Of a DNA stretch of 64,000 bases, positions 3,799-8,621 are shown piece after piece; the first letter of the stretch is position 1; every line of letters begins with the position of its first letter. Origin of the DNA: Muriicola sp. Z0-33 (GTDB lineage Bacteria; Bacteroidota; Bacteroidia; Flavobacteriales; Flavobacteriaceae); NCBI RefSeq assembly GCF_026126425.1, contig NZ_JAFMPW010000006.1, positions 62,001 to 126,000 of the forward strand, given 5' to 3'. The notes under the pieces were generated by a model. The model was not told the DNA's origin. It ran no database searches and worked only from the letters and a program-made list of their open reading frames with translations. A program made the translations under genes and the position numbers.

Positions 3799-4470
3799 TC
3801 AATGATTTAGCATGTACAAGTCGCCAGAAATAATAGATTTGTTGCAAAGATCATAGATCACGGCATCTTCTTCCGAGTCGAAATATAAACCCCAGAAAGC
3901 AAAGTAGTCCTTTTTGCTGCTATTTCCAGAATTTATATTGTTGAGCCTGTCGTCATTTTCGGGAAAATCTTCTTCGAAGACCGGGATGTAAATTTCGTAA
4001 GGAGCCTCAGTTAGTCCTTTTGTGAGGTGTACATAATTTTCAGCTATGGTTTTTATGATATTACCCAACTGCTCCTGAATACTATTGTGATATATTTTTT
4101 TAATAATAATTAAGGAATCGTCCAGCATAATTGTAAGTTCCTCAATATCTATAGGTAAAGTATTAAGTCGTTGTAATTCTATAAGCGAATTGGAAAACGC
4201 TGTTGCCACAGCAGTGGATTCATAATCCTCTGAGATTGCTCCCCAGGTACCTTTTTGAGCATGAAACAGGACTTCTACCAGTTCTATTTTACACTTCATC
4301 TCAATAACCAATTTCGCAAATTGCGTATTAGGAGAGCAATTAAAAATGCTTACTTCGGAAAAATGTTCTTTCTCCAAACTGCGTTTAAATGCGTCTAACC
4401 CTATAATTTGAGGGTTGCTGTCTAATTTCAGTTTGAGATTACTTTTAAAGTTGTTTTGATCTATCCGCAT
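3799..4470 (-). CDS. Unknown acidic cytoplasmic protein, 223 aa
   Basis: I do not recognise this protein. It has no signal peptide or membrane segment and is acidic. It seems to be alpha/beta in the first 110 residues (SEVSIFNCSPNTQFAKLVIEM) and helical afterwards (LIELQRLNTL, IQEQLGNIIKTIAENY), ending in a Trp/Phe-rich tail (DYFAFWGLYFDSEEDA). The ATG at 4470 is the only sensible start. Its upstream region holds several CCATAG/CTATGG half-sites and shares a spaced element with the promoter region of the LytTR gene at 8541. This suggests control by the neighbouring signalling genes. Function unknown. Confidence 0.8.
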   Translation of the reverse strand: MRIDQNNFKSNLKLKLDSNPQIIGLDAFKRSLEKEHFSEVSIFNCSPNTQFAKLVIEMKCKIELVEVLFHAQKGTWGAISEDYESTAVATAFSNSLIELQRLNTLPIDIEELTIMLDDSLIIIKKIYHNSIQEQLGNIIKTIAENYVHLTKGLTEAPYEIYIPVFEEDFPENDDRLNNINSGNSSKKDYFAFWGLYFDSEEDAVIYDLCNKSIISGDLYMLNH

Positions 4471-4475
4471 GCGTC

Positions 4476-4504
4476 ACCATAGTATTAAAATACACTTCTA
4501 TGGT
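4476..4504. promoter_or_regulatory. Inverted repeat ACCATAG-N15-CTATGGT, operator-like
   Basis: ACCATAG at 4476-4482 and its exact complement CTATGGT at 4498-4504 lie just upstream of the ATG at 4470. The same half-site recurs at 4543-4549. Position in the leader or promoter suggests a repressor-type operator; the binding protein is not known. Confidence 0.4.
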
Positions 4505-4531
4505 AAAATTAACGTTAATAGCTTACAGCTC

Positions 4532-4565
4532 ACTATATAAAAACCATAGAATTATTATGGTTTTT
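4532..4565 (-). promoter_or_regulatory. Spaced palindromic element shared with the LytTR promoter (copy 1)
   Basis: Consists of ACTATATA (4532-4539), the 14-mer CCATAGAATTATTA (4544-4557) and GGTTTTT (4559-4565). The same three blocks with the same spacing occur at 8588-8621. Here the core also forms a perfect stem (AAAAACCATA at 4539-4548, TATGGTTTTT at 4556-4565), so it could instead act as a hairpin terminator for the signalling genes upstream. It ends 62 nt upstream of the ATG at 4470. Confidence 0.5.
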
Positions 4566-4640
4566 ATTTTTTTTTTTGATGGTCTGTTGACTTCTAAAGA
4601 GGTTGGGAAGTGCCAAGGTAAAAGGATATATCAGAAAATA

Positions 4641-5309
4641 TTATATAAATCCCCTTTTTCTCGACTCGGTAATCAGGGCCTGATCGTTTTGCTTTTCAAC
4701 CCCAAATAGCATTTTCAATTGCCTTTTTCTATTCTCAATACCGGGTAGAGAAAGTGAGATATGGTTCACCATATCCTTTGTTTTAGTGCCTATGGAAAGG
4801 TAATATAGAATTTTTCTGTCGTTGTCGTCCAGGTGAATATTGTTCGCCATTCGCTTTCGAATAGCCTTCAAGGCCTTCTGTGTATAATAGGGTGGATTGT
4901 CTATGACCGTTCGTACCATGGTTTGAAGGCTTAGTTGGTCTATTTCGGACTTTACCATATAGCCTTCAGGGTCTACACTTTCCAGGATACTATTAATTCG
5001 GTAGTTATCGCTGAACGAGGACATAAATACAATTTTGGACGTTGGAGATACTTCTCTGGCAAAAATTCCCAATTCTTCTCCCGTTTGCTGAGGTTCTTCA
5101 GTGATCTGGGACAGTTGAATATCCAAAAGGATAATGGTAAATGGAATATTCTTGGCTGCATCCTGGATCTTTTGTTTGGCTTCATCAAAGGTTTTGGCCG
5201 TATCCATTTGGACGCTGAAGTTTTCAAATTTCGAATCTTCCAGAATAAACTTGTACCCAAGAGTAGTCATTTCATGATCGTCTACCGCTAAAATTTTAAC
5301 TACATCCAT
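4641..5309 (-). CDS. Response regulator with LuxR/FixJ-like output domain
   Basis: A receiver domain occupies about residues 4-130. Acid pocket D10-D11, phosphoacceptor D63 in IILLDIQL, the Ser/Thr switch near S97 and K120 in GYMVKSE are all present, so it should be phosphorylatable. The C-terminal 65 residues form a diverged helix-turn-helix of the NarL/LuxR type (NDRKILYYLSIGTKTKDMVNHI). It starts 19 nt after the stop of the histidine kinase gene, so the two form a two-component pair in one operon. Targets are unknown. Confidence 0.9.
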   Translation of the reverse strand: MDVVKILAVDDHEMTTLGYKFILEDSKFENFSVQMDTAKTFDEAKQKIQDAAKNIPFTIILLDIQLSQITEEPQQTGEELGIFAREVSPTSKIVFMSSFSDNYRINSILESVDPEGYMVKSEIDQLSLQTMVRTVIDNPPYYTQKALKAIRKRMANNIHLDDNDRKILYYLSIGTKTKDMVNHISLSLPGIENRKRQLKMLFGVEKQNDQALITESRKRGFI

Positions 5310-5328
5310 ATCTTCTGCAGTGCGCTTA

Positions 5329-7428
5329 TTATTTGTCCTTAGACACTAATTCTTTTTCCAAAGGAGATGTCGAATATACTAAAGGAATTTTAATTGTAAC
5401 CAGGGTTCCATCTCCTTTCGCAGAATTCACGGACCAGCTACCATTTATTTTTTCTACCCTGGAGCTGATATTTTTATGACCGATACCTTTTTTCCCTTTT
5501 TTGGGATCAAAACCTTTGCCGTCATCTTCTATTTGCACAAGCAGTACTTCCCCTTCTGCCGTAATATCCAGGAAAATGTTCTTTGCCGATGCATGTTTAA
5601 CACAATTCATTAAACATTCCTGTATAATCCTGTAGAGGTTGATAGTAATATCTGCAGACAGGTTATCCCAATCTATTTGTTCTTCATAGGTGAAACTGTG
5701 CTCTAAAGCAGCAGAATTTCCAACTGAGGTTAACAGTTCCTGGATAGAGATAATAAAGTTATGAAATTTTTGGTAGGCCGCATCGCTCAATTCATGGGAA
5801 ATAGTTCGTATCTCTTCCTGTACCTCCTGCAATTTAGAAATTGCGGATGATCTCATGGCAATAGCGTTTTCGTCTGTTTTTTGGTTAAGGCCCATAAGAA
5901 TCATGCGGGCTCCATTCATTTCTCCAAGAACCCCGTCATGTAGTTCTTCCGAAATCCGTTTTTGTTCAGATTTTTTTCCTTCCTCTATTTTTTGATTTTG
6001 AGCCATCATGAGACTAAAAATCTCGTTATTGGCTTCTTGCTGCTGCTGCTGAAATTTCAGTTTTTGATTCCTGATTCTTTGGGAAATAATTATAAAGATC
6101 AAAAGTGCTAAAAGAAATACCCCTAAAGCAATGCCGATCCACAACTGATTTTGTCTGGCTAAGACCAGATTTTCTGCTTCAACTTCTTCGGTTTCGAACT
6201 GTATGCGGGCAAACTTGTTTCGGACTTGCCGTTCTGCTTTCAACAGGCTATCGTTTAAATCGAAGTAATGAAGGCTAAATTCGGCCGAATTCCCGGGGTT
6301 TATTTTAGGAATCAAGGCCAGAGTTTCCAATAACCGGTCATTATTTTGGCTCAACTCTGCAAACTTTTTGGCTTCTAATGCATGGTGCTGAGCCCTGCCC
6401 GAATCTTTCCTGGCCAGATAAAATTCAGCCAGGTAATAATTGCTACCGGCAAGACCTTCAAGATCGTTCTCATTATTTCTAATATGAAGCGCTTGTTTAA
6501 ATTCACTTTCAATATTTTCAGGGTCACCTGCTTTAAATTTACAATACGCCCAATTATTTAATGCCCTGGCATATAACTTCGGAGTTTTAAATTGCAGGCT
6601 ATCAGTGGATAGCGTCCTTATAAAATTCGTTTTTGCTTCTTCAAAATTACCAAGTTCCCGGTGAACAACCCCAATATTGTTATACATTGCCAATTGAGTT
6701 GTGTTACTTCCCTCAATTTTTTGGAGATACTCAATTGCTGTATTATAATATTCCAAAGCCCGTTCATATTCTCCCAAATCCTTGGTTACTACTCCTAAAA
6801 GGTTAAAACAGCGGTATAGCATGGCATAATCCTCTAATGGTTTTAGAAACTCAATAGCCCTTATCGCGTTGCTTTCACTGCCAGTATAATCCTTTACTCT
6901 TGCTTGTAATCGGGCAATGTCATATAAAGTAATCCCGGCTTCCTCCTCCTGTCTAATGGATATGAAAATTTTTTGTGCATTGTTTAAGTAGAAAAAGGCA
7001 CTGTCTTTTAAATTTTCACGGTTAAAGAATGTACCCAGGTCCCAATCGGTAATTCCTATCCTTAAAGAGTCGTTTAATGCTCGCGCGAGTTTCCTGGTTT
7101 GCCTATTGGATTGCCGGAATTGAAGGGAATCCTGCAGGTCCAGAAAATTCCACTGAATCTTAGTAAGTTGACGGATTTTAGGAGTGTCATCTTGTTTCTT
7201 CTGTACCAGTGAATAGGCCTTATCCAAATAACGTCGCCGGTCATCAACGGAATTGGTGTTATTCTGAGACTGGTCAATAAATAAATCAACACTATCAGTT
7301 TGGGTGGCTGCATTGTCATACCGGCCCGCATTAGACTTGTTTTTACAGGAAAGAGTACAGCACAAAACCACACAAAAAAGAACCGTGAATATTGAAAAAC
7401 AGGAGTAAAAATTTCTCTTTTCAGTCAT
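5329..7428 (-). CDS. TPR sensor histidine kinase, NarX-like (HisKA_3)
   Basis: A 699-residue membrane kinase. The ATG at 7428 is the start (a TTG nine bases upstream is less likely). The N-terminus is a signal with a possible lipobox ending at C28 (TLSCK). About residues 90-380 are tetratricopeptide-like repeats, probably periplasmic. One membrane helix follows at about 430-450, then a Gln-rich coiled coil. The phosphoacceptor is H497 in SEELHDGVLGEMNGARM, typical of the HisKA_3 family. The HATPase domain has an N box (RIIQECLMNCVKHA) and a G box (EDDGKGFDPKKGKKGIG). It is cotranscribed with the response regulator 19 nt downstream. Confidence 0.93.
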   Translation of the reverse strand: MTEKRNFYSCFSIFTVLFCVVLCCTLSCKNKSNAGRYDNAATQTDSVDLFIDQSQNNTNSVDDRRRYLDKAYSLVQKKQDDTPKIRQLTKIQWNFLDLQDSLQFRQSNRQTRKLARALNDSLRIGITDWDLGTFFNRENLKDSAFFYLNNAQKIFISIRQEEEAGITLYDIARLQARVKDYTGSESNAIRAIEFLKPLEDYAMLYRCFNLLGVVTKDLGEYERALEYYNTAIEYLQKIEGSNTTQLAMYNNIGVVHRELGNFEEAKTNFIRTLSTDSLQFKTPKLYARALNNWAYCKFKAGDPENIESEFKQALHIRNNENDLEGLAGSNYYLAEFYLARKDSGRAQHHALEAKKFAELSQNNDRLLETLALIPKINPGNSAEFSLHYFDLNDSLLKAERQVRNKFARIQFETEEVEAENLVLARQNQLWIGIALGVFLLALLIFIIISQRIRNQKLKFQQQQQEANNEIFSLMMAQNQKIEEGKKSEQKRISEELHDGVLGEMNGARMILMGLNQKTDENAIAMRSSAISKLQEVQEEIRTISHELSDAAYQKFHNFIISIQELLTSVGNSAALEHSFTYEEQIDWDNLSADITINLYRIIQECLMNCVKHASAKNIFLDITAEGEVLLVQIEDDGKGFDPKKGKKGIGHKNISSRVEKINGSWSVNSAKGDGTLVTIKIPLVYSTSPLEKELVSKDK

Positions 7429-7498
7429 TACATACAAGATAGAAAAAAAGCCTTAAATGAAATATTTAAGGCAATTGGTTTTATCGTTGTTATAGGGC

Positions 7499-7663
7499 TT
7501 ATCTTCCGCCGCTACCTCCACTTGGTGGAAGATAATCATCATCGCTGGCAGACTTGTCTAATTTGTATAGGGCATCTGTCTCGTCAACAGTATTTTCTGG
7601 TTCGCATGAAATCATTCCTAAACTAAAAATTGCAATTGCTAATACACTTAGTACCTTTTTCAT
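7499..7663 (-). CDS. Small lipoprotein, 54 aa
   Basis: A short frame from the ATG at 7663 to the TAA at 7499. It encodes a lipoprotein signal (MKKVLSVLAIAIFSLGMISC, lipid cysteine C20), an acidic stretch (EPENTVDETDALYKLDKSASDDD) and a Gly/Ser-rich tail ending in GGSGGR. After processing only about 35 residues remain. It lies between the histidine kinase gene and the LytTR gene on the same strand. It could be a surface-exposed or sensed peptide for the neighbouring kinase, but that is inference. The signal sequence makes a chance frame unlikely. Confidence 0.75.
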   Translation of the reverse strand: MKKVLSVLAIAIFSLGMISCEPENTVDETDALYKLDKSASDDDYLPPSGGSGGR

Positions 7664-7809
7664 CTTCTTCTGTTTTTGGGATTATTTGTTTTGATTTGTT
7701 GTTCTGTAGCTAAACTAAGAAGGAGTACCCAAGGGTATTGTGTAAAAGAAAATGTTTTAGTAGATGAACAGCCTTTAGGAGTAATTATACTGTTTCTGTG
7801 AGAATTTAC

Positions 7810-8541
7810 TTAATTAAAGGAGGTAATTGTGTTTTTCGCAAGCAGTGTTTTAAGGTTATCTATGTTTTGCTTGTACGTTTTAGAAAAGGGGAGTTGCGTC
7901 TTTCCGGATTTCAAGGCACAAATAGCCTTGCCGTAATTTATCCTGGAAACATAATGCGTATTTAGAATATAACTCTGGTGAATTCTGATAAAATTATCAG
8001 GGAGTTGTTGTTCAAAGCTCTTTAAGGTCTTAAATGCGCTTATGGTTCGGCCATCGCGCATAATAAAATCCGTTGCATTATTATCGGCCTTTAGATAAAG
8101 GATATCTGCAGTTTCCAGGTATTGAAAATCCTTATACGATTTTAAGCAGAGTGTTTGAGAAACTACCTCTTTCGGCATGTTTTTGCGCAGCTTCAGAATG
8201 GTTTTCCTGATATCAAATTCGCTGTATGGCATTAACCAATAATCGAAGAAGTTATTCTTGAGTGCCTCATACGCGTATTCCTTGCCCCTGGAAATCCCAA
8301 TAACCAATGGTAATTCTTTGACATATTGGTGCAATTGAGTTACCATATGAAAATATTCGTATGCCGTTTCGTTGAGATTAACAAAAACTAAGTCCGGGAG
8401 GTGTTTAAGGATGGCATCCAGGCCGTCATGGCTATTTCTAGCCTGGGCTACACATAAAAAATCCCCGTAGTCTTCCAGATAATGCTCCAATTGGAGCTGG
8501 GAAGTGGCTTCAGAATCTATGATGGTATAGGTGTAGTCCAA
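7810..8541 (-). CDS. LytTR DNA-binding protein with degenerate receiver domain
   Basis: Residues 1-120 have the response-regulator fold but have lost key residues. The phosphoacceptor Asp is N55 (DLVFVNLN), the second acid of the pocket is S10 (IIDSE), and the conserved Lys is M104 (YWLMPY). Residues about 130-240 are a LytTR DNA-binding domain (DILYLKADNNATDF, NFIRIHQSYILN). It therefore probably binds DNA without phosphorylation control. There is no in-frame ATG near the start; an in-frame stop lies three codons upstream of the TTG at 8541, so TTG is the likely start. It may regulate itself and the unknown gene at 4470 through the shared upstream element. Confidence 0.88.
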   Translation of the reverse strand: MDYTYTIIDSEATSQLQLEHYLEDYGDFLCVAQARNSHDGLDAILKHLPDLVFVNLNETAYEYFHMVTQLHQYVKELPLVIGISRGKEYAYEALKNNFFDYWLMPYSEFDIRKTILKLRKNMPKEVVSQTLCLKSYKDFQYLETADILYLKADNNATDFIMRDGRTISAFKTLKSFEQQLPDNFIRIHQSYILNTHYVSRINYGKAICALKSGKTQLPFSKTYKQNIDNLKTLLAKNTITSFN

Positions 8542-8587
8542 TTCAACTTAATTTGAGGTACAAAGTAGTAATACAAAATGAGAAAGT

Positions 8588-8621
8588 ACTATATATTTAC
8601 CATAGAATTATTAAGGTTTTT
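8588..8621 (-). promoter_or_regulatory. Spaced element shared with the gene at 4470 (copy 2)
   Basis: ACTATATA (8588-8595), CCATAGAATTATTA (8600-8613) and GGTTTTT (8615-8621) repeat the blocks found at 4532-4565 with identical spacing; only the 4-nt and 1-nt spacers differ. This copy is a poorer palindrome, so the conservation is better explained by protein binding than by a hairpin. It lies 47 nt upstream of the LytTR gene start. Confidence 0.5.

Follow-up and report, generated by a model that had tools for sequence, protein, structure and literature searches.

This work describes a spaced DNA element that precedes two genes of one cluster in Muriicola sp. Z0-33, one encoding a LytTR regulator and the other a 223-amino-acid (aa) protein, and that is probably a conserved promoter switch worked by the adjacent two-component regulator. 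The cluster lies in a stretch of 64,000 nucleotides (nt) of contig NZ_JAFMPW010000006.1 (hereafter the window, whose first letter is position 1). A preliminary description of the window had reported two copies of the element, at 4532-4565 and 8588-8621, lying 62 and 47 nt upstream of minus-strand genes, together with a further dyad, ACCATAG-N15-CTATGGT, at 4476-4504; we recovered all of these, the two copies being identical at 30 of 34 positions. Its statement that a chance match is improbable also holds, as the window contains CCATAGAATTATTA twice when one mismatch is allowed, against a mean of 0.04 over 100 shuffled sequences, none of which had two. The spaced pattern ACTATATA-N(0-12)-CCATAGAATTATTA has two copies in the whole 4.15-Mb genome, both within the window. 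The features of the two promoters are as follows, with expectation values (E) from a model search of the strain's own genome.

8588-8621, minus strand: putative operator of the LytTR gene; dyad AAACC-n-TA-N7-TA-n-GGT(AAA) with its axis near 8608, third box ATATAG at 8589-8594; E 2.0e-14
8561-8567, minus strand: -7 box TACTTTG of the LytTR promoter, in the same column of promoter alignment A1 and fitting TAnnTTTG
4532-4565, minus strand: putative operator of the gene for the 223-aa protein; dyad AAAACCATA-N7-TATGGTTTT plus third box ATATAG; E 6.3e-13
4504-4511, minus strand: -7 box TAATTTTA of the promoter of the 223-aa protein gene, in a column shared with the -7 box of LytTR promoters
4476-4504, minus strand: extra dyad ACCATAG-N15-CTATGGT, at or just past the expected transcription start

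At the level of sequence, the two copies are one promoter module, in which a dyad is followed by a third box and, at a fixed distance, by a -7 box. This module was followed in 67 loci of relatives, collected by scanning named genomes with the LytTR protein. By their titles these are flavobacteria (a few are labelled just Bacteroidetes, Bacteroidia or Flavobacteriales), including Eudoraea, Muriicola, Poritiphilus, Zeaxanthinibacter, Maribacter, Muricauda/Flagellimonas and others. In its common form the module reads AAACC-n-TA-N7-TA-n-GGTTT, followed by a CTATAG or CTATGG box and then, at constant distance, by TA..TTTG; the distance from dyad to -7 box is fixed at both genes. Three clade forms are distinguished (alignments A1, A3 and A4), and both promoters of one genome broadly match the form of their clade. 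An ungapped profile scored above 15 bits in 62 of 66 LytTR promoters and in 48 of 50 promoters of the 223-aa protein gene, window included; these counts are in-sample, as are those for the direct repeats below. The misses were L064, L065, L067 and L068 at the LytTR gene, which are the four most distant LytTR genes, and L022 and L068 at the other gene. The extra dyad at 4476-4504 was left out of the conserved module because no counterpart was noticed at that place in the promoters of relatives.

The position of the module relative to transcription can be estimated from its -7 box. PMC9723704 gives the sigma-A -7 consensus as TAnnTTTG at -12 to -5, and the -7 box fits this consensus position. 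By that reckoning the dyad is centred near -53, and the third box falls at about -39 to -34. In the promoter profile there is little information content around -33. We infer from this layout a promoter that depends on an activator.

Sequence-only models (R1, R2 and R3) were built from the promoter alignments and searched against whole genomes. Copies scattered without relation to promoters, or loss of the element in close relatives, had been named beforehand as grounds for doubting a regulon. What was found instead is that relatives retain the element at both genes and that 50 of 60 sites are intergenic, at most 400 bases upstream of a same-strand open reading frame (ORF) of at least 100 aa, as against 609 of 11,473 random positions in the same loci (5.3%). 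These 60 sites are most of the ones found at E of about 1e-4 or lower, plus some that are weaker, several between 1e-5 and 1e-2 being left out; two (L193 and L211) are promoters of the 223-aa protein gene by clustering, and 58 further sites remain. Of 22 partial matches that were not scored on the -7 box, 20 show it at the column where it is expected, compared with 0 to 4 at five control columns. At E 0.001 and under stricter filters, R1 matched eight of 119 relatives, six of which carry the gene for the 223-aa protein; the remaining two (G010 and G034) show partial weak matches. When cluster-carrying genomes were searched in sets of 29, 17 and 14, every genome had a match; nearly all of these genomes had given sequences to the models, and the genome of L037 was left out. 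With a degenerate pattern, 30 genomes yielded 61 matches, some of them the two strands of one site, and the backward control yielded two.

In Muriicola sp. Z0-33 itself, a third site lies on contig 22 (E 2.7e-9) before a three-gene operon (L103:6996-9809) whose products are 624, 235 and 70 aa long; the second starts like a lipoprotein, and the third, a peptide, ends in CPCPDGGWSWLCCP. The first protein of this operon is matched in five of 397 genomes of the family, the match in G113 being a C-terminal piece alone, and the element precedes the operon in the strain's own genome and in G108. In the genome of Saonia flava this operon is L165, and it stands under the same element in two genera, with proteins of 624 or 652, 235 and 69-70 aa; the small peptide of 69-70 aa has the C-terminal end CPCPDGGWSWLCC in both. 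A weak fourth site (0.01; contig 11, L104) precedes an operon with a ferritin-like and a TIR gene and has no -7 box at the expected column. On the strand opposite to this operon, an AbiH-type gene (Pfam AbiH 3.5e-30; L104:4773-5747) adjoins the site.

The genes of the cluster, and a second element between them, bear on the question of which protein reads the dyad.

7810-8541, minus strand: LytTR regulator gene, 243 aa; Pfam LytTR 2.5e-17, receiver domain
7753-7807, minus strand: three direct repeats AAT(A/T)CTCnCAnAA with a period of 21; candidate LytTR operator
7710-7717, minus strand: -7-like box TAGTTTAG of the peptide gene, a conserved column in the alignment of the repeat region
7499-7663, minus strand: ORF for a small, putatively secreted or lipid-anchored peptide, 54 aa; proposed kinase input
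5329-7437, minus strand: TPR sensor histidine kinase gene, 702 aa; Pfam TPR_12 3.2e-15 and HATPase_c 8.8e-11 (over the cut-off), HisKA_3 1.9e-4 (just under it)
4641-5309, minus strand: NarL/LuxR-type response regulator gene, 222 aa; Response_reg 1.8e-4, under the Pfam cut-off
3799-4470, minus strand: gene for the 223-aa protein

The order upstream gene, LytTR, kinase, response regulator and 223-aa protein gene is kept in most of the relatives' loci that reach far enough. In this comparison, the upstream gene was not found at L021, L033, L060, L065, L067 and L068, nor the gene for the 223-aa protein at L065 and L067; the kinase is fragmentary in L007 and farther off in L042, and kinase and regulator are separated in L030 and L032. 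NarL-type NCBIfam models cover most of the length of the response regulator with scores under the cut-off, and its Asp10, Asp11 and acceptor Asp63 are kept in 52 of 52 sequences. A kinase next to a receiver-helix-turn-helix regulator with an acceptor Asp has the composition of a NarL/LuxR-type two-component system. At the acceptor place of LytTR (position 55), 58 of 68 aligned sequences have Asn and three have Asp.

LytTR seems to have a target of its own. According to PMC6193735, LytTR sites are direct repeats mostly 12 bases apart, with 9-base repeats in S. mutans. The repeats at 7753-7807 match this layout: they recur about every 21 bases in the same orientation and are followed by a promoter with a -7 box. 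They lie upstream of the peptide gene, which itself sits between the LytTR stop and the kinase gene. Over the repeat region, lag 21 scores 0.20 and the next best lag 0.05, and 62 of 67 sequences exceed 20 bits (misses: L056, L059, L061, L065 and L068). The repeat pattern has one match in the strain's own genome (7758-7805, zero mismatches), and all 25 matches with at most one mismatch in 30 genomes fall inside the cluster; matches with two mismatches are uninformative, since there are 36 of them against 23 in the backward control.

The peptide itself is a candidate signal pro-peptide with predicted export. It has a conserved signal- or lipobox-like start and a hypervariable, often acidic tail (e.g. 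L028, L042, L037 and L053); part of the Maribacter group has CxxC-containing tails. By a loose rule, a comparable ORF is present in 59 of 61 loci, the one in L038 looking spurious, and it is tandemly repeated in some, with five copies in L028 and L042. Muricauda-type loci (L043, L044, L047, L048, L050, L058 and L069) carry one more small ORF, which starts some 290-370 nt past the LytTR gene, between the genes for peptide and kinase, and ends in DDREL, DDRKL, DDRQL or DEREL.

Taken together, the reading that we favour, with fair but not high confidence, is that the dyad is the operator of an activator-dependent promoter read by the kinase/NarL-type pair of the cluster, and that LytTR, acting on the repeats, closes a loop. 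The secreted peptide (7499-7663) would be the most likely input of the TPR kinase (5329-7437), which would phosphorylate the NarL-type regulator (4641-5309). A dimer of this regulator on the dyad near -53 would recruit RNA polymerase to promoters that have a -7 box and little conservation around -33. Its constant targets would be the genes for LytTR and the 223-aa protein, and its variable targets elsewhere would include effector-like enzymes. LytTR, lacking the phospho-acceptor Asp, would bind the three 21-base repeats directly behind its own gene and drive expression of the genes for peptide, kinase and regulator, which would close a positive loop. The pairing of proteins with sites and the direction of regulation in this scheme are suggested by position and conservation, as is the role given to the peptide.

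The conserved core of the shared element at 4532-4565 and 8588-8621 is an inverted repeat and does not have the direct-repeat form of LytTR sites; because LytTR sites are direct repeats (PMC6193735), LytTR is probably not the dyad reader. Locus L022 points the same way. Its dyad at the 223-aa protein gene reads AAATAC...GTATTT about the same axis, and the arms of its LytTR dyad are GTATTT and AGATTC; the L022 genome matches its own dyad form perfectly twice, at these two promoters, and its two one-mismatch matches are at control level. The recognition side has changed along with it in the NarL-type regulator, the helix of which is unlike the others, and whose DNA-binding domain is 52% different from the nearest sequence (receiver 33%). 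The LytTR DNA-binding domain of L022 is 14% different from those of L025 and L026, whose dyads are ordinary, and the direct repeats of L022 have the usual form. On these grounds, and with the acceptor Asp kept throughout in the NarL-type regulator and mostly replaced by Asn in LytTR, the NarL-type regulator is a good deal more likely than LytTR to be the dyad reader. The preliminary description had proposed a shared operator and a regulon that includes the 223-aa protein and the LytTR gene, which stands, with LytTR as direct reader and autoregulator, which is probably wrong. The system is also larger than it had proposed, with a third site in the strain's own genome, the peptide gene, the second element and an effector regulon in relatives.

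Several observations weigh against a reading of the dyad by the NarL-type regulator. In a partial distance test over 44 genomes, the DNA-binding domain of the regulator reached a correlation with the sites of 0.37 and that of LytTR 0.27; without L022 the values are 0.28 and 0.34, and the candidates are not separated. L022 is one case, and its LytTR promoter has just one changed arm, while L056 combines a Maribacter-type regulator helix with a CCATG/CCTTA site. By our own count the dyad half-sites are 15 bases apart centre to centre, which differs from the spacing of NarL sites. At the third-target operon, neither R1 nor R2 matched at E 1 or below in the available DNA of G323 and G075, and the element is thus undetected in two of the four genomes with a near full-length homologue.

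The foremost alternative, which we regard as rather unlikely, is that LytTR itself binds the shared element and regulates its own gene and that of the 223-aa protein, the NarL-type regulator acting elsewhere. The LytTR gene is indeed a constant target, the dyad sites correlate with distances between LytTR DNA-binding domains, and in some of the dyad sites the logo can be read as a weak direct repeat of 22 bases, AAACCwTA/AAAtCTATA. Such a reading through the 22-base repeat was set back by the finding of the 21-base triple repeat, a separate element of LytTR layout that is unchanged in L022, where the dyads have changed. The symmetry of the dyad argues against it as well, as do L064 and L067, in which a LytTR gene and weak repeats occur without a dyad. 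A joint switch, in which the NarL-type regulator would occupy the dyad and LytTR the third box, is less likely still: the third box is conserved at a fixed distance and a partial correlation with the sites persists for each of the two DNA-binding domains, but the third box is unlike the 21-base repeat unit before the peptide gene. A terminator hairpin or mobile repeat without operator function was rejected as highly improbable, for although 4532-4565 forms a hairpin with a T run on the plus strand behind the response regulator gene, and a few weak extra sites (L173 and L174) are not before a gene, the dyad is imperfect at LytTR, the -7 box of the downstream gene lies at a set distance, the sites precede genes and exact copies in the genome number just two.

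Under the preferred reading, with the dyad as operator of the two-component pair, the genes behind the 58 further sites would form the variable output. Their families were assigned with Pfam, and in some cases with PADLOC or by clustering. Subtilases (Peptidase_S8) stand under the element at L160, L179, L191 and L194, with homologues by clustering at L197 and L210. The 14 Muricauda-type genomes have 42 subtilase matches, five of them under the element, where about 0.14 would be expected by our own estimate, because the 35 fetched stretches make up about 0.3% of that DNA. Further proteases are a caspase (C14) at L189, a trypsin with an endonuclease/phosphatase domain at L188 and a sub-cut-off trypsin at L212. 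TIR domains occur at L196 and at the weak L104 site, patatins at L158 and L166, a DNA/RNA endonuclease at L194, endonuclease/phosphatase domains at L205 and L218, and HNH and CoiA at L157. L181 has YLATT together with a metallo-beta-lactamase protein that scores just under the cut-off (PADLOC LmuA 1.8e-15), and L159 has a reverse transcriptase (PADLOC RT_UG19 4e-124). Other families are nucleoside phosphorylase (L161), IrrE peptidase (L186), tyrosinase (L155), a C39 ABC exporter (L195) and an FAD oxidase at L199 with homologues at L166 and L201. Counted by hand, the presumed operons at 20 of the 58 sites include a gene for a protease, nuclease, lipase, TIR, reverse transcriptase, nucleosidase or the like, and many other downstream genes are without known family.

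An operon of a TPR kinase and a 204-aa LuxR-type regulator recurs under the dyad (L156, L182, L184, L185, L187, L192 and L212; at L192 the kinase stands alone, as the contig ends there) and may be a second two-component system fed by the first. Among 72 regulon proteins, PADLOC matched subtilase in five and CARF3 in four, besides single matches; in the controls, restriction methyltransferase models matched at least two of 90 proteins (45 of 70 control families lie outside the matches listed), a figure not cleanly comparable with that of the regulon. Judged by the domains and their place behind the element, a defence role of the regulon is plausible. More tentatively, the whole may be a peptide-based cell-to-cell circuit of marine Flavobacteriaceae with a fast-changing peptide, two interlocked positive loops and two operators, the output of which would be lineage-variable conflict and immunity effectors that enter the regulon on gaining a dyad promoter.

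The constant output, the 223-aa protein, has homologues in 22 of 149 genomes of the family, and its gene is syntenic in relatives. It has no Pfam match, NCBIfam gave just one irrelevant sub-threshold match, and it was not found in a search of viral contigs. An AlphaFold2 model from 43 aligned sequences has a mean predicted local distance difference test score of 78.9, and Foldseek against PDB returned no match at E 0.001 or better. The best VIA-align result was Z 4.2 (3.6 Å over 108 residues) with proteins titled sex pheromone precursor; this Z lies in the range that the tool calls common, and no conclusion on the fold was drawn.

A literature search, with most subscription journals outside its reach, found no description of the element or the circuit. 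To our knowledge, little has been described in Bacteroidota of peptide signalling or of transcriptional control dedicated to immunity-type effectors. Each link of the proposed circuit can be tested, since its operators are exactly defined, its two regulators have separable targets, and both a candidate signal and a constant output protein are at hand; the promoter module is also a sequence handle for new effector genes, many of them without known family. With NarL/LuxR-family two-component systems the circuit shares the domain types of kinase and regulator, the conserved acceptor Asp and an inverted-repeat operator; it differs in its TPR sensor, its LytTR partner and its many lineage-specific targets, and the dyad half-sites are farther apart than in NarL sites. 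In Firmicutes, agr and other autoinducing circuits also have the gene for a small secreted peptide (secretion being predicted here) beside a kinase-regulator pair, and a feedback architecture such as is proposed here; the peptide, kinase and regulator families are different in the present case, and the host is Gram-negative.

The LytTR domain and direct repeats with a period of about 21 bases upstream of a promoter are shared with AgrA and with the LytTR Regulatory Systems of Streptococcus mutans, for which positive feedback has also been proposed (PMC6193735 and PMC4227749). In contrast to these, there are three repeats instead of two, the repeats would drive the peptide-kinase-regulator set while the LytTR gene stands under an inverted-repeat operator, and the acceptor Asp is replaced by Asn. 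LytTR Regulatory Systems combine a membrane inhibitor in the operon with repeats before their own promoter; here no adjacent membrane inhibitor gene of that type is present, the neighbours are peptide, kinase and regulator, and the repeats lie behind the LytTR gene. Finally, several downstream genes share effector domains with conflict and immunity systems that use caspase, trypsin or TIR effectors (PMC7159879, PMC8195603). The accessible text of these two reports describes no shared promoter element or circuit for such systems, whereas the link between the genes described here is transcriptional.

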